From Owenia fusiformis (lineage: Eukaryota; Annelida; Polychaeta; Sabellida; Oweniidae), in assembly GCA_903813345.2 (NCBI GenBank), contig CAIIXF020000003.1, positions 2,260,109-2,324,108 on the forward strand: a stretch of 64,000 nucleotides of DNA. Direction: 5' to 3'. The position numbers and the translations under genes are program-made. Positions within the stretch are counted from its first letter, which is position 1, and every line of letters begins with the position of its first letter. Under the pieces are notes generated by a model. That model saw nothing but the letters and a program-made list of their open reading frames with translations, made no database searches and was not told where the DNA came from. Shown here in pieces: positions 41,119 through 61,376 of this stretch.

Positions 41119-41293
41119 ATTGATTCACGTCGGGAAGTTATTGTTATATTTAATTTTGATTAATTATCATAACAAAACGCCAAACTGATGTCTGATATCC
41201 TGTCATTTCAAGGTAGAATATAACGTGATACAGTGGCAAATGATAATTATTATATTTTATATTGCATTTTCTTTTATATTACATGTTATTGTA

Positions 41294-41504
41294 CACTCCC
41301 CTCCATAAATTTCGCAATCGGAAGTTCCCTCTTTGGTCGCCTATCAAAACCTGTTAAGATTTGGCGATTTGAAAAATTCATCACATTTTTTATAAAATTT
41401 CGAACTCGTGAAATTGAGACACAAAATTAAGATTAAAACATCCACAGGCTCATGATATGCTATCAAATTGATATTCCCGATTGCCAAACTTATGGAGGGG
41501 AGTG
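41294..41504. mobile_element. MITE of the CACTCCCC family with TA flanks
   Basis: Ends: CACTCCCCTCCATAAATTTC at the left and the complement of CACTCCCCTCCATAAGTTTG at the right; inverted matching extends about 30 bp (to the CGGAA/TTCCCG step). TA is present on both sides (41292-41293 and 41505-41506), as expected of Tc1/mariner-type insertion. No transposase. This is the clearest full copy of the family in the window. Confidence 0.8.
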
Positions 41505-41506
41505 TA

Positions 41507-45790: not shown

Positions 45791-45828
45791 AATTAGGGGG
45801 GTTGCCAAATTTATGGAGGGGAGTGTAG
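45791..45828. mobile_element. Single right-hand MITE end next to the 45-bp satellite
   Basis: GTTGCCAAATTTATGGAGGGGAGTGTA matches the right TIR of the CACTCCCC family. The 40 bases before it (GAGGCTTTAACACGTAG) also match the copy at 51697-51845. No left end was found. Confidence 0.6.
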
Positions 45829-46019: not shown

Positions 46020-47665
46020 TGTATTTTCAAGAAGTCTGTATTGCTGAGTTGTGAGTGGCCATGTACATAACGAAGTTGGTCGTATATCGACTATACTACT
46101 GACCTTACTGGTATTGAAGGTGGTCGTATACCCGACTATACTACTGACCTTATTGGTATTGAAGGTGGTCGTATACCCGACTATACTACTGACCTTATTG
46201 GTATTGAATTGTAATTTCAGGGAGTCTGAATTGTTGAGTTGTGAGTTGCCTTGTACATAACAAAGGTGGTCGTATATCCGACTATACTACTGACCTTATT
46301 GGTATTGAAGGTGGTCGTATATCCGACTATACTACTGACCTTTATTGGTATTGAAGGTGGTCGTATATCCGACTATACTACTGAACTTATTGGTATTGAA
46401 GGTGGTCGTATATCCGACTATACTACTGACCTTATTGGTATTGAAGGGGGTCGTATATCCGACTATACTATTGACCTTATTGATATTGAAGGTGGTCGTA
46501 TATCCGACTATAATACTGACCTTATTGGTATTGAATTGTATTTTCAGGGAGTCTGAATTATTGAGTTGTGAGTTGCCTTGTACATAACAAAGGTGGTCGT
46601 ATATCCGACTATACTACTGACCTTATTGGTATTGAAGGTGGTCGTATATCCGACTATACTACTGACCTTATTGATATTGAAGGTGGTCGTATATCCGACT
46701 ATAATACTGACCTTATTGGTATTGAATTGTATTTTCAGGGAGTCTGAATTATTGAGTTGTGAGTTGCCTTGTACATCACAAAGGTGGTCGTATATCCGAC
46801 TATACTACTGACCTTATTGGTATTGAAGGTGGTCGTATATCCGACTATACTACTGACCTTTATTGGTATTGAAGGTGGTCGTATATCCGACTATACTTCT
46901 GAACTTATTTGTATTGAAGGTGGTCGTATATCCGACTATACTACTGACCTTATTGGTATTGAAGGGGGTCGTATATCCGACTATACTATTGACCTTATTG
47001 ATATTGAAGGTGGTCGTATATCCGACTATAATACTGACCTTATTGGTATTGAATTGTATTTTCAGGGAGTCTGAATTATTGAGTTGTGAGTTGCCTTGTA
47101 CATAACAAAGGTGGTCGTATATCCGACTATACTACTGACCTTATTGGTATTGAAGGTGGTCGTATATCCGACTATACTACTGACCTTATTGATATTGAAG
47201 GTGGTCGTATATCCGACTATAATACTGACCTTATTGGTATTGAATTGTATTTTCAGGGAGTCTGAATTATTGAGTTGTGAGTTGCCTTGTACATCACAAA
47301 GGTGGTCGTATATCCGACTATACTACTGACCTTATTGGTATTGAAGGTGGTCGTATATCCGACTATACTACTGACCTTATTGGTATTGAAGGTGGTCGTA
47401 TACCCGACTATACTACTGACCTTATTGGTATTGAATTGTAATTTCAGGGAGTCTGAATTGTTGAGTTGTGAGTTGCCTTGTACATAACAAAGGTGGTCGT
47501 ATATCCGACTATACTACTGACCTTATTGGTATTGAAGGTAGTCGTATATCCGACTATACTACTGACCTTATTGGTATTGAAGGTGGTCGTATATCCGACT
47601 ATACTACTGACCTTTATTGGTATTGAAGGTGGTCGTATATCCGACTATACTACTGACCTTATTAT
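46020..47665 (+). repeat. 45-bp satellite, left block, about 28 units
   Basis: Unit GGTGGTCGTATATCCGACTA plus TACTACTGACCTTATTGGTATTGAA (45 bp). Groups of three to six units are separated by a linker of about 55 bp that contains CAGGGAGTCTGAATTATTGA and GTGAGTTGCCTTGTACATAA. A 518-bp block is duplicated almost perfectly (46251-46768 and 46769-47286). Because 45 is a multiple of three, open frames run through the array with a 15-residue period (GGRISDYTTDLIGIE); they are not taken as genes. Confidence 0.9.
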
Positions 47666-48146
47666 TTATCCCTAATAAGGAACATAGTTCTTTAAACATT
47701 TTGGAACGGAACTGTGATCCCATATCTGTATGGAGAGAAAGTGGCACACCAAATTTTGATATAAATCCATCTATAAAAGCTCTTGCTACAGTTACAGCTT
47801 CTATGTTTGGTAAGGGAATTGCTTCTGCATATTTGCTGAAGTAATCCTGTATCACTAATATGTATTTATTTTTAAAATGACGACTCCTTCTAATGGGACC
47901 AAGAATATCCATTCCTACCCTTTCCAAGGGATATCCTACATTATATGATTTCATTTTAGCTTTGGGATGCTTAGCTGGATGTTTTCTACATTGACAACGC
48001 ATACAACTTTTGACCCATCTTTCTACATCCACAATATAATTATGCCAATATACTCGTCCTTGTACTCTATCCTGAGTGCGTTTTACTCCTAGGTGACCTC
48101 CACCACAAGAGGACTCGTGTAGTTGTTCCAGGACTTTTGTTTGCAT
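47604..48146 (-). pseudogene. Ty3/Gypsy integrase remnant
   Basis: Carries the integrase zinc-binding pattern (HLGVKRTQDRV through CMRCQCRK) and the beginning of the catalytic core (VGMDILGPI, then LHTDMGSQF). The low-coordinate end of this open frame runs into satellite sequence, so it is a chance extension. Part of the same broken element. Confidence 0.85.
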
Positions 48147-50690
48147 TCATTTTGGTAATATTAACTGCCAAACAGCTTTCTTTCCCTTTTTAGGAATCCA
48201 TTTACGATATAATACTCCATTTATAAAATGAATCCTATTCCATTGTGACCAATATGATTTATGCACTGGAGATAATGATGATATATCCTCCCATTTTGGA
48301 CGTACTCCAAGGGTTTTCCATTGAATAATTTTACTCAGGGAGGGATCATTTTGTTGTGCACTTTGAAGTTCCTCAGGACTTTTTGAAGTTGGCCAAGAAT
48401 ATATTAGATCATCTGGAATATCCTGTGAGGACTTAGCTGTGGGTGGTTTATCCAAATGCTTTTGTTGAGCTCTTGTTAACACTCTAACTGCGACTGCTTC
48501 TCCATCTTGGGATTTTACATCAGTTTCAGGAGGTTCCATAACAGGATCATCAAATATATCCGAATCAATGTTTTCGCCAACACAGCCTTGGGATGTATCG
48601 GGGTCAGTATTTTGTAATTCCTTTCTGCTACAATAAGAACAATCTCCACATCGTCTCCTTGACAAGGAATCAGCGTTTCCATGTAGATGTCCTGCTCTAT
48701 GCTGAATTTCCATATCATAAATTCCCAATGTCTCAAGCCATCTAGCCATTTGTCCAGTCGGATTTTTAAACTGAAGTAGCCAGGTGAGAGATCCATGATC
48801 CGTTCTAAGAAGAAATTTACGTCCATAAACATAGTGATGGAAATGGGTTACTGAAGATATTACAGCTAAAAGTTCTCTCCTTGTTACACAGTACTTCCTT
48901 TGGGGGGCTGATAGAGTTTTTGAAAAATAAGCAATCACTTTCAATTGTCCATCTTGTTGTTCTTGCGAAAGTACAGCTCCCATTGCGAATGCTGAGCAAT
49001 CTGTGTCCAATATAAATTTTCCATGAGGATTTGGATACGCTAGAATATCAGATGCAACTAGACGTTCTTTGATCTTTTCAAATGCAATTCGACATTCCTC
49101 AGTCCATTTGAATACAGCATTCTTTTCAGAGAGTCTGTATAGTGGTTTGGCTATCTCAGCAAATCCACGTATAAAGCGTCTGTAGTAGCTACCAAGTCCT
49201 AGGAAAGCTCGTGTTTCCTTTAGATTCACAGGTGTTGGCCAGGTAATTATTGCTTTGATCTTTTCCGGGTCTGTACTAATACCTTCATGAGATACAATAT
49301 GTCCTAGGAATTTTACAGAACGTTTCATGAGCTGACACTTTGAGGGAGATAATTTTAGTCCTGCTGTTTTTAGTTTGTTGATCACTGTGTTGACATTATT
49401 AACATGTTCATCAAAGGTTTTAGAGTAAATTATCACATCATCGATGTACAATAGAGAGAATTTATATAGGTCTTCTGCTAGTACTTTTTCCATTAATCTT
49501 TCAAAAGTAGCAGGAGCGTTACATAATCCAAAAGGCATCACATTGAATTCATATAATCCTTTCCCTGGAACAGCAAAGGCTGTTTTAGGAATATCACTAG
49601 GATCCATGGCAACTTGCCAGTATCCACTACTCAAGTCAATACTAGAAAACCATTTTGCTCCCTCCAGAGCATTTAAACTCTCCTCTATGAGAGGTAAAGG
49701 ATAAGAGTCTTTGCGGGTGACATTGTTGACCTTTCTATAATCAATCGTAAATCGGATAGAATTGTCCTTTTTCTTAACTAAACAAATGGGTGATGACCAA
49801 GGACTCTCTGAGGGACGTATTATATCCTGTTTAAGCATTTTATCTACTTCCTCTTGGGCTTTTTGATGATTCGCAAGTGGTAATCTCCTTAATGGTTGTT
49901 TAATAGGTTGTGTATCTCCAGTGTCAATTCTATGTTGTACCAGTGTAGTCCTTCCAATATCTCCTTTGTATAAAGAGAATGCGCCTTGTTGCTCCAATAA
50001 AAGTTGTTTAAATGCTAATTTCTCATCATTATTCAATTCGGGACTAGTTTCATCCCACATCTTTTGTAAATGACTTGGAATACCCATTTCTGAGATGGTG
50101 TGGTTTGTTTGTATATCCTTATTTTGAGATTCTGTCGAAGTATTCAAATTCACATCAGGCATCATAATATTTTCATCCAACACTGGCTCACCTTCAGCCA
50201 ATATAGTATCCTTTTTTATAATAAAGGGAGTGTCATTCACATTAATAACCCGCACGGGTATAACTGTCCCATGGGGATTTACTAGAGACCTCGCTACACT
50301 AACACCATACATATCCATATCCATTTCTAAATTTTTAAATGGTTCTAGTAGTACTTGTTGAACTTTCGCAGTCCATTTATTATTCTGTATCCTCCCCGGT
50401 ACAATCATTTCACTATTGGCAGGGATTTCTATGTCATCCTGCACTAGAATAATGTCATTGTTTATATCAGTTATATTTTTGTTTACTTCAAGCTGTTCTT
50501 CAGCTATACACTGGATGCACTGATTGTTTACATATAACAAACCACTTTCCATGTCAATGTCACAATTTCTGGTACGAAGGAAATCACAACCTAGTATTCC
50601 ATTTTCTTTAATTTTGGCTACTACTAACGAATGAGATACAGATAATTGTTCTTGAAATTCCATTAAAAAGGATCCCCTGCCAACGGGCAA
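48147..50690 (-). pseudogene. Ty3/Gypsy pol remnant (protease part, RT, RNase H)
   Basis: Fossil pol region. Near its start GILGCDFLR is typical of the protease end. Further on come the RT boxes KKKDNSIRFTIDYRKVN, MPFGLCNAPATFERLM and LLYIDDVIIYSK, then the RNase H core around DTDCSAFAMGAVLSQ and the LRTDHGSLTWL block, followed by a linker toward integrase. The order PR-RT-RNase H-integrase marks it as Ty3/Gypsy rather than Ty1/Copia. Part of a broken element. Confidence 0.9.
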
Positions 50691-51384: not shown

Positions 51385-51625
51385 ATTGAAGGTGGTCGTA
51401 TATCCGACTATACTACTGACCTTTATTGGTATTGAAGGTGGTCGTATATCCGACTATACTACTGACCTTATTGGTATTGAAGGTGGTCGTATACCCGACT
51501 ATACTACTGACCTTATTGGTATTGAATTGTATTTTCAGAGAGTCTGAATTATTGAGTTGTGAGTTGCCATGTACATAACGAAAGTGGTCGTATACCCGAC
51601 TATACTACTGACCTTACTGGTATTC
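51385..51625 (+). repeat. 45-bp satellite, right block, 4 units
   Basis: Three units, one linker and one final unit of the same satellite as 46020-47665. The outermost linker here reads GTGAGTTGCCATGTACATAACG, the same variant as at the far left edge of the array (46050), so the two blocks are the two sides of one original array. Confidence 0.9.
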
Positions 51626-51696: not shown

Positions 51697-51845
51697 CACT
51701 TCCCTCAGAAGATGTGGAAACTCTATTTTCACCATAATTTCCAAAATTGAGCTTATGAAAATAAAAATACAAGCATCAAGACTCGGAGAGGCTTTAACAT
51801 GTAAGACTATGGGGGGGGAGGTTGCCAAACTTATTGAGGGGAGTG
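51697..51845. mobile_element. Short MITE of the CACTCCCC family
   Basis: Left end CACTTCCCTCAGAAGATGTGG; right end complement of CACTCCCCTCAATAAGTTTG. TA lies on both sides (51695-51696 and 51846-51847). 149 bp, no coding. Confidence 0.65.
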
Positions 51846-51847
51846 TA

Positions 51848-53679: not shown

Positions 53680-53894
53680 TACACTCCCTTTAATAAGCTT
53701 AGCAACCGCTAACTTTCTTTAAAGAACATATCAAGGCTGACAATGTCTGAATCTCAATTTTGTTTCATTAAATATAATATTTCGGATATTTATGACAAAT
53801 TTGATAACATTGTTTAAATCGCGAAACACTACCCAGCTTCGATAAGTGACCCAAAAGGGGACTTCAAATTTCCAAACTTATGAAGGGGGTGTTT
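53680..53894. mobile_element. MITE of the CACTCCCC family, diverged
   Basis: Left end TACACTCCCTTTAATAAGC; right end TCCAAACTTATGAAGGGGGTG. Its last 40 bases (AAAGGGGACTTCAAATTTCC) resemble those at 57056-57092, just after the 122-bp satellite. Confidence 0.65.
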
Positions 53895-55082
53895 GAAAGT
53901 GTAACCCTCCTCTAAAGCTGCAATCATTGTCCATAAAACACTATCATTCAACGATAGCCATCCGTATTTAGTACTCACTTTCATCTATACTTCTCGGCCA
54001 TGAATGTCTTAATATTGATACAACGTTATTCCTAGTCATTAAAAGTAAAATATGGAGAGATATGAAAGGAAAATGACTTCTTTATTTAAACTTCTTATTA
54101 CGTTACGTTGCTGTACGTTTTATGAGCAAATTAGATAAAGTACTGTAGATAAAGATGCTCTCATCTTCATTTGCTGAATTTGTTGAACTAATTACCTTGA
54201 GTATCGGAGCTTAGTACTTTAGGTGCAGTTGAAGCCCTCTTTTAAGAAAGTAAATCAATTGAAAGGGTACTCAGATTTGGAAACCGTGGCGACTTTGATA
54301 CTTCATGTTTTTACTCTGGATGACAAGGCCCAGAGCAATGTAGATGAAGGTCTCTTTTAAGAAAGCAAAATCTAGAGTGATTAAAATGTCTTGATTCTTA
54401 TGTCACTGCCAGAAATGGTAAACTATAAATTGTCTCCCACTTTTTTAAGAACGATGTTGGGCGTTCGGCGGTTGGCGTCCGAATTTTCTAATTCACCCGG
54501 TTGCACGAATTGGTAACATTTGTTTCTCCATTTGTTCCTCTCTTATTTAAAGCCCTGAAATCAAATATACTTTTACATTTCATTTAGCGTTGCCGCAGTT
54601 CAAATTATTAAGGGATTTTAGAATGAATCACGAGTATTCGGTTTTTACGTGCGCGATTAATTTAAATGTTCACTGTTTATTACTGCATTACTCGTCAAAA
54701 GCAAAAAATATATGATAGCTCGCAAATTTTTACAATATATCTACATTGTTACAATATATCTTCTCACATCAGATCAAAAACCCTTAAAATATGAGACCAT
54801 AATGCATTTGGAAAACAAAAAATATTTTATGAGTAGCTGAACGAAATTTTTTCATTGATTGTAAGGGTAGTCAGTGATCATGATCTATTTCCAAAAAACA
54901 ATTTTTACGATATGAGGTACCGATGTATAAACGTATATAAACGTCCATAAACGTATACTGTAAAATGACATTTTTATTTTAGTATTTGTTTTCGTGGGTA
55001 TAATTTATGGAATCCATCTAAACACACATTATCACAAATGTTATATGTTCAATCGCTGATCACTTACCAAATCACGGTTCCT
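53895..55082. other. No recognisable feature
   Basis: AT-rich spacer before the 122-bp satellite. Confidence 0.5.
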
Positions 55083-57035
55083 ATGCTATAGCATGGAACT
55101 ATCTTCTTTCTGCCTGTGTATAATAACCTTGATGTATATTTTCATATTTGCTCTCCCCTTCATAAGTTGTGCAACCGGTTAAGTGTGCCTTTATCAAAAT
55201 TCCCATGCTATAGCATGGAACTATCTTCTTTCTGCCTGTGTATAATAACCTTGATGTATATTTTCATATTTGCTCTCCCCTTCATAAGTTTTGCAACCGG
55301 TTTAGTGTGCCTTTATCAAAATTCCCATGCTATAGCATGGAACTATCTTCTTTCTGCCTGTGTATAATAACCTTGATGTATATTTTCATATTTGCTCTCC
55401 CCTTCATAAGTTGTGCAACCGGTTTAGTGTGCCTTTATCAAAATTCCCATGCTATAGCATGGAACTATCTTCTTTCTGCCTGTGTATAATAACCTTGATG
55501 TATATTTTCATATTCGCTCTCCCCTTCATAAGTTTTGCAACCGGTTTAGTGTGCCTTTATCAAAATTCCCATGCTATAGCATGGAACTATCTTCTTTCTG
55601 CCTGTGTATAATAACCTTGATGTATATTTTCATATTTGCTCTCCCCTTCATAAGTTTTGCAACCGGTTTAGTGTGCCTTTATCAAAATTCCCATGCTATA
55701 GCATGGAACTATCTTCTTTCTGCCTGTGTATAATAACCTTGATGTATATTTTCATATTTGCTCTCCACTTCATAAGTTTTGCAACCGGTTTAGTGTGCCT
55801 TTATCAAAATTCCCATGCTATAGCATGGAACTATCTTCTTTCTGCCTGTGTATAATAACCTTGATGTATATTTTCATATTTGCTCTCCCCTTCATAAGTT
55901 GTGCAACCGGTTAAGTGTGCCTTTATCAAAATTCCCATGCTATAGCATGGAACTATCTTCTTTCTGCCTGTGTATAATAACCTTGATGTATATTTTCATA
56001 TTTGCTCTCCCCTTCATAAGTTTTGCAACCGGTTTAGTGTGCCTTTATCAAAATTCCCATGCTATAGCATGGAACTATCTTCTTTCTGCCTGTGTATAAT
56101 AACCTTGATGTATATTTTCATATTTGCTCTCCCCTTCATAAGTTGTGCAACCGGTTTAGTGTGCCTTTATCAAAATTCCCATGCTATAGCATGGAACTAT
56201 CTTCTTTCTGCCTGTGTATAATAACCTTGATGTATATTTTCATATTCGCTCTCCCCTTCATAAGTTTTGCAACCGGTTTAGTGTGCCTTTATCAAAATTC
56301 CCATGCTATAGCATGGAACTATCTTCTTTCTGCCTGTGTATAATAACCTTGATGTATATTTTCATATTTGCTCTCCCCTTCATAAGTTTTGCAACCGGTT
56401 TAGTGTGCCTTTATCAAAATTCCCATGCTATAGCATGGAACTATCTTCTTTCTGCCTGTGTATAATAACCTTGATGTATATTTTCATATTTGCTCTCCAC
56501 TTCATAAGTTTTGCAACCGGTTTAGTGTGCCTTTATCAAAATTCCCATGCTATAGCATGGAACTATCTTCTTTCTGCCTGTGTATAATAACCTTGATGTA
56601 TATTTTCATATTTGCTCTCCCCTTCATAAGTTGTGCAACCGGTTTAGTGTGCCTTTATTAAAATTCCCATGCTATAGCATGGAACTATCTTCTTTCTGCC
56701 TGTGTATAATAACCTTGATGTATATTTTCATATTTGCTCTCCCCTTCATAAGTTTTGCAACCGGTTTAGTGTGCCTTTATCAAAATTCCCATGCTATAGC
56801 ATGGAACTATCTTCTTTCTGCCTGTGTATAATAACCTTGAAGTATATTTTCATATTTGCTCTCCCCTTCATAAGTTGTGCAACCGGTTTAGTGTGCCTTT
56901 ATCAAAATTCCCATGCTATAGCATGGAACTATCTTCTTTCTGCCTGTGTATAATAACCTTGAAGTATATTTTCATATTTGCTCTCCCCTTCATAAGTTGT
57001 GCAACCCGTACCGGTTTAGTGTGCCTTTATCAAAA
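55083..57035 (+). repeat. 122-bp satellite, 16 monomers, with transposon-end motif
   Basis: Sixteen near-identical 122-bp monomers. Each has the perfect 16-bp palindrome CCATGCTATAGCATGG and, about 80 bp on, CTCTCCCCTTCATAAGTTTT followed by GCAACCGG, which is the left-end motif of the CACTCCCC MITE family. Monomers 1-6 and 7-12 carry matching variant sites exactly 732 bp apart (for example the TATTCGCTC variant at 55512 and 56244, and CTCCACTTC at 55764 and 56496), so six monomers form a higher-order unit present twice. The last monomer has a 6-bp insert. Frames starting every 122 bp are by-products. Confidence 0.95.
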
Positions 57036-57094
57036 TAGTGGGGAAATTTGATAATCTTAAAGGGGCTTTCAGGTTGACAAACTTATGGGGAGGG
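57036..57094. mobile_element. Right-hand MITE end closing the 122-bp satellite
   Basis: After the last monomer the sequence leaves the satellite and ends with TTGACAAACTTATGGGGAGGGCTGTA, the right TIR of the same family whose left TIR is in every monomer. The last monomer plus this piece therefore look like a complete short MITE. Confidence 0.6.
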
Positions 57095-57199
57095 CTGTAG
57101 TTTATCATACAGGTGCTTATTGATATTATGTAATTGAAAAAGAAAGAGCATTTCAAGTATGTTTAAATACGTGCACCCTATACGAAGTGATCAGCGGAA

Positions 57200-57740
57200 A
57201 CATATATATTTGACTTGTGGGGGGAGGTGGAGGGGAGTGTATTTCTGTACAACTTGCCAACGCGTGGGAAAATGTAGGTTAAAGCGGATACCTACTAATA
57301 TATATTTGACTTATGGAGGGGAGTGTATTTCTGTACAACTTGCCAACGCGTGGGAAAATGTACGTTAAAGCGGAAACCTGCTAGTTTATATTTGACTTAT
57401 GGAGGGGAGTGTATTTCTGTACAACTTGCCAACGCGTGGAAAATGTACGTTAAAGCGGAAACCTGCTAGTATATATTTGACTTATGGAGGGGAGTGTATT
57501 TCTGTACAACTTGCCAATGCGTGGGAAAATGTAGGTTAAAGCGGAAACCTGCTAGTATATATTTGACTTATGGAGGGGAGTGTATTTCTGTACAACTTGC
57601 CAACGCGTGGGAAAGTGTAGGTTGAAGCGGATACCTACTCATATATATTTTTGACTTATGGAGGGGAGTGTATTTCTGTACAACTTGCCAACGCGTGGGA
57701 AAATGTAGGTTAAAGCGGATACCTGCTAGTATATTTGACT
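57200..57740 (+). repeat. 86-bp satellite, about 6 units, with inverted transposon-end motif
   Basis: Units of 84-88 bp (first one longer by about 11) of the form TTGACTTATGGAGGGGAGTG, TATTTCTGTACAACTTGCCA, ACGCGTGGGAAAATGTAGG, then TTAAAGCGGAWACCTRCTA. Each unit holds CTTATGGAGGGGAGTGTA, the right-end motif of the CACTCCCC family. It lies about 120 bp from the 122-bp satellite, with the motif in the opposite orientation. Confidence 0.9.
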
Positions 57741-57794: not shown

Positions 57795-58300
57795 ATATAC
57801 AACACGACATTTAGAACAGAATCTGGAAATTCTTTGGATGGGGCAAGGGGAATGCCTTGGAATCTTTTTTAGAAGGGAATCTGGTAATCCTTTTGGTTGG
57901 GGCACGGACGTGTCTTGGAATCTCTGTGAGCGGTGGGGAAGCTTGTTATCCTTTGGGTTGAGGGAAGGAGGCGTCTTAGAATCTTTGTTGACGGGTCTGG
58001 AACAGCTGGTAATCCTTTGGCATGGGGCAAGGAAGAGGACGGGGGGAGAAAAACTGGTAATATTTTGGGTTTGGGCAAGGAAGAGTCCTTTAATATTTGT
58101 GGATGGGGCTGGGAAAGCTGATAATATTTTGGGTCGGGGCAATAAATAGTCTTGGAATCTTTGTAGGCGAGGTGGGGAATCTTGTAATCTTTTAGGTTGG
58201 GACAAGGAAGAGTCTTGGAATCTTTGTAGGTGGGGGTGGGGAAACCCGGTAATCTTTTGGGTTCGGGCAAGGTAGAGTCTTGAAATCTTTTGAAAGTGGC
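57795..58300. repeat. Diverged G-rich minisatellite of about 60-70 bp units
   Basis: About seven to eight diverged units with TCTTGGAATCTTTGTAGG, GTGGGGAA, GGTAATCTTTTGGGTT and GGGCAAGGAAGAG blocks. It is visibly richer in G than its surroundings. Minus-strand frames through it (57726-58349 and 57869-58387) give proline-rich repetitive peptides in two overlapping frames, which argues for repeat rather than gene. Confidence 0.75.
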
Positions 58301-60540: not shown

Positions 60541-61376
60541 ATGTTACAACCACTGTTATATATTGTAACAACCATTTTGTATATTGTAACAACCAGTGTT
60601 ATTGTAACAACAACTGTTATATATTGTAACAACTATTTTGTATATTGTAACAACCATTGTTATACATTGTAACAACCATTTTGTATATTGTAACAACCAG
60701 TGTAATTGTAACAACCATTGTTCTATATTGCAGCAACCATTTTGTATATTGTAACAACCATTGTTCTACATTGTAACAACCATTTGTATATTGTAACAAC
60801 CACTGTTATATATTGAAACAACCATTTTGTATATTGTTACAACCATTGTTGTATACTGTAACAACCATTTTGTATATTGTAACAACCATTTTGTATTATT
60901 GTAACAACCACTGTTATATATTGAAACAACCATTTTGTATATTGTAACAACCATTGTTGTATACTGTAACAACCCTTTTGTATATTGTAACAACCATTGT
61001 TGTATATTGTCACAACCATTGTTCTATATCGTAACTCTCATTATCTATATTGTAACAGCCCTTGTTCTATACTTTAACAACCATTGTTGTATATTGTAAC
61101 AACCATTGTTATATATTGTAACAACCATTTTGTATATTGTAACAACCACTGTAATATATTGTAACAACCATTTTGTATATTGTAACAACCATTATTGTTT
61201 ATTGTACAACAATTGTTATTGTAACAACTATTGTTCTATATTGTAACAGCCATTGTTGTATATTGTAACAACCATTGTTCTATACTTTAACAACCATTGT
61301 TATATATTGTAATAACCATTGTTGTATATTGTAACAACCATAATTGTATATTGTAACAACCAGTGTTGTATGTCAT
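60541..61376 (+). repeat. 21/22-bp minisatellite, about 38 copies
   Basis: Units of the form ATTGTAACAACCATTTTGTAT or with TGTTATAT/TGTTGTAT in the last part, often alternating. Copies vary by one or two bases in length. Minus-strand frames give periodic peptides (YTKWLLQ, NGCYNIQ), a by-product of unit length. Confidence 0.9.

Follow-up and report, generated by a model that had tools for sequence, protein, structure and literature searches.

Two adjacent tandem arrays in the Owenia genome are composed of units that join the terminus of a MITE to flanking DNA, in opposite orientations, and the same architecture recurs at other copies of the MITE family, with units that close on the local flank and MITE body at several loci. 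The arrays lie in a 64-kb stretch of contig C3 (G000:C3:2260109-2324108; "the window"), and the genome searched comprised 498 Mb in 525 contigs. We consider it highly probable that each array originated by local tandem amplification straddling the boundary between MITE terminus and flank, through a duplication at microhomology and then unequal exchange. Since what appear to be array births are found at other copies of the MITE, the birth of satellites can be traced at the places where it began.

The MITE family was defined from a single-copy reference element of 211 bp at 41292-41506 (+ strand), with TA on each side, in line with the TA-flanked MITEs of an earlier note on this DNA, and with terminal arms of 30 bp at 93% identity. 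A second full-length copy lies at 53680-53892 (- strand; 69% identity to the reference), and the right TIRs of other copies lie at 45802-45827 (- strand; the body at its left resembles an 880-bp element by eye) and at 51822-51847 (- strand). The motif CACTCCCC was seen 12 times in the window, compared to 0.45 expected, and 0 of 100 shuffles reached 12. In a genome search with the 211-bp element, 40 of 166 candidates scored, namely the element itself and 39 others, full or partial, with 69–83% identity and spread over many contigs; 22 fetched single copies and the reference were aligned end to end. The TIR query TACACTCCCCTYCATAARTTTNGCAA gave 2,634 + 2,881 = 5,515 genome matches with at most 2 mismatches, and its reversed control gave 0. 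Among the 100 TIR places listed, many were inverted pairs spanning about 830–880 bp, and the TIR also bounds elements of ~880 bp and one element of 2,278 bp (C1:983382-985659). The latter has identical 33-bp arms, TA, and transposase pieces (DDE_3, 4.6e-11; HTH_38, 2.5e-8), which are two pieces in different frames. The MITEs have their TIR and TA target in common with a transposon holding Tc1/IS630-type transposase pieces, and based on domains, TIR and TA we take the family to be of the IS630/Tc1/mariner type. The features of a MITE were all found: short elements with TIRs and TA at both ends, high and dispersed copy number, and a TIR common to an element with DDE transposase pieces of this type. 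Helentron- or pearl-type elements with internal tandem repeats are defined by having no TIR pair with a TA target; both TIR pair and TA were present here. Given the 5,515 TIR matches and the ~880-bp and 2,278-bp elements, the MITE copies are not broken edges of satellites, an explanation the earlier note had wanted checked.

The 122-bp array (55078-57036, + strand) contains 16 monomers (TRF: 16.0 copies, 98% matches), each made of ~70 bp of flank and ~52 bp of MITE left end. The sequence CTCCCCTTCATAAG was found once per monomer on the + strand (16/16), with a CTCCAC reading in two copies. A left-end motif had been claimed for every monomer, and it is indeed present in all 16, with a different exact sequence: the monomers carry GCTCTCCCCTTCATAAG instead of CACTCCCC, TG replacing the family TA. 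Against fetched copies of the family, the 51 bp of MITE in the unit scored 42 (60 shuffles, maximum 29) and the other 71 bp, the flank, scored 25 (shuffle maximum 32) and do not match. The monomers are almost identical, the single long change being an insertion in the last one. Their differences averaged 0.44 at a lag of 6 versus 1.3–3.0 at other lags (15 monomers); they recur every sixth monomer and hence reveal a 6-monomer higher-order repeat. The outer edge is marked by a near-perfect 23-bp palindrome, GTTCC-ATGCTATAGCAT-GGAAC (55077-55099, by eye), inside which the duplicated segment begins, and a 16-bp palindrome recurs in the monomers. At the inner edge lies a MITE of ~121 bp (56979-57099, + strand), whose left end is common with the last monomer and which continues through a body to a single right TIR. 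It scored 47 against the family (60 shuffles, maximum 32), and its arms compared together gave a marginal 22 (500 shuffles, maximum 20). The last copy of the array thus reads into a right end, about 57073-57099 (score 41 alone, maximum 29), as previously proposed. A genome-wide search with the full unit gave 16 matches, all at this locus, a count that is not in itself proof of rarity.

The 86-bp array (57204-57740, - strand) has 6 copies of 85–88 bp and an irregular left edge, where the leftmost copy is irregular from 57204; TRF reported 57228-57734, with 5.9 copies and 94% matches. Its unit consists of 19 bp of MITE TIR and ~67 bp of flank, and the likeness to the TIR is limited to these bases (19/19 bp). 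On the - strand, CTCCCCTCCATAAG was present in 5 units and CACTCCCC in all 6, which agrees with the opposite orientation already reported for this motif. The TIR part scored 38 against fetched family copies (shuffle maximum 23), and the remaining 67 bp scored 30 (maximum 29) and do not stand out. No recognisable MITE body belonging to this array was seen. At its outer edge, ACT is common to flank and TIR (by eye). The full unit matched the genome 6 times, all at this locus, which again does not by itself prove rarity. A reading of the two arrays as the two ends of one MITE was not supported by eye, because the DNA to the right of 57099 is unlike the flank contained in the 86-bp unit, and because the spacing is not a whole number of units.

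Hence, the proposal in the earlier note that both arrays were amplified from MITE termini is supported with one correction, in that the units are chimeras of flank and terminus (~70 + 52 bp and ~67 + 19 bp). Single-copy MITEs had been suggested as possible carriers of one full monomer and did not contain one, because over half of each unit is flank. Satellites of either type lacking the MITE-end motif were not seen, the full-unit searches having matched this locus only.

Other tandem repeats are present in the window. Adjoining the 86-bp array, G-rich tandem units of ~58–64 bp (57810-58291; 75–78% matches) show no evident MITE motif, and a 22-bp array of TGTAACAACCATTGTTGTATAT occupies 60542-61371 (39 copies, 82% matches). 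A 45-bp tandem repeat at 46072-47663 (33.9 copies) and 51385-51526 (3.1 copies) flanks two retrotransposon pol-like ORFs (47604-50690), as if it formed the ends of that element.

Across the genome, TIR cores in the same orientation and 59–89 bp apart gave 284 matches (control 0), a count in which short-unit arrays score several times. Among the matches listed (the first 100 of 284), 15 loci were found within the initial ~158 Mb; at that density the whole genome would hold roughly 47. Two patterns anchored at the inner edge gave 15 and 16 matches and eight further loci, and a search with one unit added five more array loci, for a total of 28 loci with tandem TIR arrays. The inner edge of the 31-bp unit was found at three loci (4 matches, at most 1 mismatch); L084, which has this unit, was missed by the inner-edge search because its inner TIR is changed. 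We examined 29 arrays (27 fetched loci and the two window arrays), all selected for tandem TIR cores, with unit lengths of 26, 27, 31, 32, 37, 40–42, 44, 46–48, 50, 86, 93 and 122 bp and 2 to 71 TIR cores per array. The usual order, read inward, is flank, TA, (TIR + X)n, a last TIR continuing into the MITE body, and an inverted TIR, and array edges elsewhere do lie at MITE ends, at other loci with tandem TIRs. In 16 of the 29 arrays, against 0.06 expected from shuffles, a strict partner TIR in inverted orientation (4 substitutions or fewer in 17) lay no more than 900 bp from the inner edge. Two of these partners are weak: for the 86-bp array it is a TIR of the adjacent MITE, and in L101 the TIR may itself belong to a second array, of degenerate 48-bp units, on the same side. 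No strict partner was present in the other 13 arrays within the stretches read (920 bp for L089; no inner sequence fetched for L078). Outer flanks (>60 bp) were mutually unrelated, except those of L082 and L083+95, a duplicated locus. Pairs of arrays ~57–61 kb apart with inner sides 94–96% identical represent duplicated array-bearing loci, namely L085+L096 and L086+L097 (C4, 25.60 and 25.66 Mb), with differing outer flanks, and L082 and L083+L095 (C4, 1.516 and 1.577 Mb).

Foldback elements have long TIRs built of tandem repeats at both ends. The arrays did not show this organization, extra end copies on both sides being found in 2 of 29 (L090 and L092), perhaps in a third (L101). In L090 (426-715; C11:1262125-1262414) a flank-derived 42-bp unit has been added, inverted, at both MITE ends; its two copies differ by one mismatch by eye and match the left outer flank at 18 of 22 positions. 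L092 (312-1474) is an 880-bp-type MITE with both ends duplicated, 47 bp on the left and 242 bp on the right, the right-end copies being 92% alike over 231 bp. In L101 a MITE bears the 40-bp unit on its left side; on its right (1-353) are a degenerate 48-bp array (6 copies, 84%), with a unit that approaches the TIR to within 5 substitutions in 17, and a 30–31-bp array. As a control, we took a subterminal motif that lies ~50 bp from the terminus of the 880-bp MITE; it gave 2,398 genome matches and 0 tandem pairs at the spacing that gave 284 for the TIR core. For this single spacing and a single subfamily, which may be younger, the control favours duplication of the end rather than of the body. 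Counter to an end-only pattern, the 242-bp right-end duplication of L092 includes subterminal sequence, and the preference for ends is only partly testable because all patterns used to find arrays require the TIR core. Of the features of TE-derived satellites, tandem near-identical units and recognisable TE sequence in the unit were found, and abundance at many loci or in heterochromatin was not. The 122-bp, 86-bp and 48-bp units each occur at one locus and are therefore local arrays of minisatellite size; the 40-bp unit was the only dispersed one among those searched.

The junctions at which arrays begin and end were analysed in 24 arrays with a gapped measure of how far the unit matches inward into the MITE body and outward from TA into the outer flank, closure being the overlap at the junction. 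Flank was found inside the unit in 6 of the 24 arrays: L079 (50 bp), L090 (42 bp), L091 (48 bp), L093 (93 bp) and the 122-bp and 86-bp arrays of the window. Their outer-flank scores, with the maxima for swapped flanks and for shuffles in brackets, were 34 (1 and 3) for L079, 12 (3 and 5) for L090, 20 (2 and 5) for L091, 65 (4 and 7) for L093, 68 (3 and 5) for the 122-bp array, and 59 (3 and 6) for the 86-bp array. Closure was +7 bp (ATAAGTT) in L079, +1 in L091, +2 in L093, -2 in L090 and +1 in the 122-bp array; for the 86-bp array it was -10 by script, because of an indel and a lost body, and +3 by eye (ACT). Junction microhomology was thus 7 bp in one case and 0–3 bp elsewhere, the latter near chance level. 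Three of the six flank-chimeric units were searched genome-wide and matched at home only, with counts of 16/16 (122 bp), 6/6 (86 bp) and 31/31 (48 bp, L091). A flank match alone indicates just that array and flank are in phase where the array begins; near-zero closure and a private unit together argue for birth in place. Nine arrays (L073, L075, L076, L077, L082, L083+95, L089, L092 and L094) repeat the terminus of the MITE, accompanied by no more than a few bases of flank. The units of L085+96 and L086+97 were ambiguous and L078 was not assignable. The remaining six (L074, L080, L081, L084, L087 and L088) did not close, their units holding sequence absent from both the local flank and the MITE body, and these arrays were therefore not born in place or have changed since.

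These observations would fit a process that starts with a break or stalled fork near a MITE end. Repair or restart at 0–7 bp of microhomology between the flank and the TIR or body, as we infer from the junctions, would yield a duplicated segment of flank plus the terminal 19–52 bp. In a second step the copies would be expanded by unequal exchange or slippage, which for the 122-bp array is supported by its 6-monomer higher-order repeat. A third step is suggested, in which a unit is moved or copied to other MITE ends through TIR homology or by transposition of a lengthened MITE; as every unit contains the TIR, it could move in this way.

The reverse order, in which the satellites predate the MITE insertion and one monomer, made chimeric by that insertion, later swept the array, appears improbable to us. 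Satellite DNA is open to insertion of a MITE that targets TA, and homogenisation may conceal older monomers; however, the MITE end is present in 16/16 and 6/6 monomers with no TIR-free monomer at any edge, the last 122-bp copy continues directly into the MITE body, and the layout recurs at other loci with unrelated flanks. It is less likely still that the TIR core was kept because a protein binds it, in a role like that of the CENP-B box. A 19-bp core, TACACTCCCCTCCATAAGT, is common to otherwise different units, but a shared core follows from the search design and common descent. In none of the 16 arrays with at least 5 usable units was the core significantly more conserved than the rest, and in L078, L084, L085+96 and L091 it was more variable (p 1e-6 to 0.03, uncorrected). 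On account of this variation within arrays we reject CENP-B-box-like conservation of the core, and no pointer to a function for the arrays was seen. Local amplification at the MITE boundary would account for individual arrays; the spread of units between loci was approached through the 40-bp unit, which consists of the TIR and GATATATGTATCTAGTATATA and gave 24 matches at seven loci (C1, C2, C3 twice, C4, C10 and C11), with a 37-bp variant on C5. At each locus the unit abuts a MITE body or at least its first part, and these bodies are strongly diverged. Some units therefore appear to have been moved or copied between MITE ends.

Whole MITEs lengthened by tandem TIRs may have transposed, as has been described for tandem-TIR MULEs of plants, the arrays at many loci then being insertions; we regard this as possible and hold it with little confidence. 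It would explain why unit X (the 40-bp unit) lies at the outer MITE end at seven loci and its variant at the eighth, why these eight loci carry from 1 to at least 19 extra units, why outer flanks (>60 bp) are unrelated with the one pair excepted (L082 and L083+95), and why TA precedes the outermost TIR in 8/8 loci. The ages of the TIRs point the other way. Over the eight loci the outermost TIR carried 3 edits in 136 positions and the inner TIR 9 in 136, whereas the right partner carried 15 in 102 at six loci (Fisher, p 0.0004 for outermost versus partner and p 0.14 for outermost versus inner; the cells are not independent, the loci were selected in part by the unit itself, and two partnerless loci were left out). 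With fewer edits in the outer than in the partner TIR, the added unit seems to postdate the element, which suggests with moderate strength that the 40-bp unit was added to old MITEs by TIR transfer and does not descend from one old lengthened MITE. Also at odds with transposition of whole elements are six arrays elsewhere whose units contain flank and show full or near closure at their own locus. Transfer between MITE ends by TIR homology, through small circles or template-switching gap repair, is about equally tentative as a general account. L080 and L087 carry nearly the same unit (20/21 by eye) next to bodies of 67% identity, the outer TIR is younger than its partner, and L090 has one chimeric unit, inverted, at both MITE ends, as expected if one TIR was copied from the other. 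On the other hand, three chimeric units searched genome-wide matched at home only, among them the 48-bp unit of L091, for which no spread was seen; no circle or intermediate was observed; and the search for X allowed just 3 mismatches, which favours similar units. A tree of the MITE bodies, considered for a common lineage among the loci with the 40-bp unit, was star-like with low support, and three of its rows had been flipped by the aligner. In L099 (467-1640; C1:1533.9-1535.0 kb), an insert of ~1.1 kb with inverted ends CGAGGGTTGATCATAAAGTTCTCATAATATC lies inside the 40-bp unit and resembles a separate inverted-repeat element inserted within the array.

Microhomology-mediated duplication first and unequal exchange second is the order that we favour. 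A wider claim, to which we give rather little credence, is that satellites repeatedly nucleate and land at MITE ends: transposase-linked breaks at the TIR/flank boundary would give rise to chimeric units in place, and each unit, through its TIR, could recombine with any of thousands of further MITE ends; if so, one transposon family would both found and disperse the minisatellites of a genome. The origin of a satellite is usually inferred long afterwards, and here the founding junctions are readable in several cases. Within one family, arrays of varied age and size leave flank, TIR, breakpoint and microhomology legible, so that the nature of the first step (slippage, end joining or transposase-linked repair) becomes a statistical test within one genome. 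The dispersed 40-bp unit likewise offers a test of how satellites spread.

Many satellites born from TEs and MITEs have been described, and TIRs are named as sources in the accessible text of three reviews (PMC12628747, PMC9659126, PMC6947457). The miDNA4 MITE and satellite of Xenopus (Scalvenzi and Pollet 2014, as described in the available part of PMC12628747) likewise tie a Tc1/mariner-type MITE to a satellite, with microhomology proposed in copy-number change; the miDNA4 satellite is internal to the MITE, whereas the Owenia unit spans the MITE end and includes flank in six arrays. Xstir in Xenopus and the HindIII and BIV160 satellites of bivalves are also MITE-derived, but are single cases for which the portions consulted describe no founding junctions at many loci (PMC9659126, PMC6947457). 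In the model of minisatellite origin outlined in PMC6947457, short flanking repeats, often inside TEs, undergo slippage or unequal exchange and then expand, which corresponds to the first step proposed here; as far as that partial text goes, the model is not tied to the junction of TE and host DNA at many loci of a single family. Closest in structure, judging from the parts available, are the tandem-TIR MULEs of plants and the Tetris TIR-220 satellite (PMC3310237, PMC4079207). The MULEs also have extra tandem TIRs, slippage was considered, and some copies were amplified; they differ in TIRs of 100–500 bp, target duplications of 9–11 bp, and an extra TIR on both ends in 48 of 61 elements, and the text seen leaves the mechanism open and describes no flank-chimeric units or long arrays (PMC3310237). 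In the Tetris foldback element of Drosophila virilis, TIR tandem repeats similarly gave rise to arrays of up to 66 copies, but these are ~220-bp repeats inside long TIRs, and host flank in the unit is not described in the section available (PMC4079207). Units of flank plus TIR at many loci were not found in the literature examined, which was seen in part and mostly without subscription papers. TE-born satellites as such are known; what is new is that repeated births are read at the ends of one family, and the distinctive feature of the Owenia arrays is a unit running from flank to MITE end, with the founding flank still present, at several loci of the same family.
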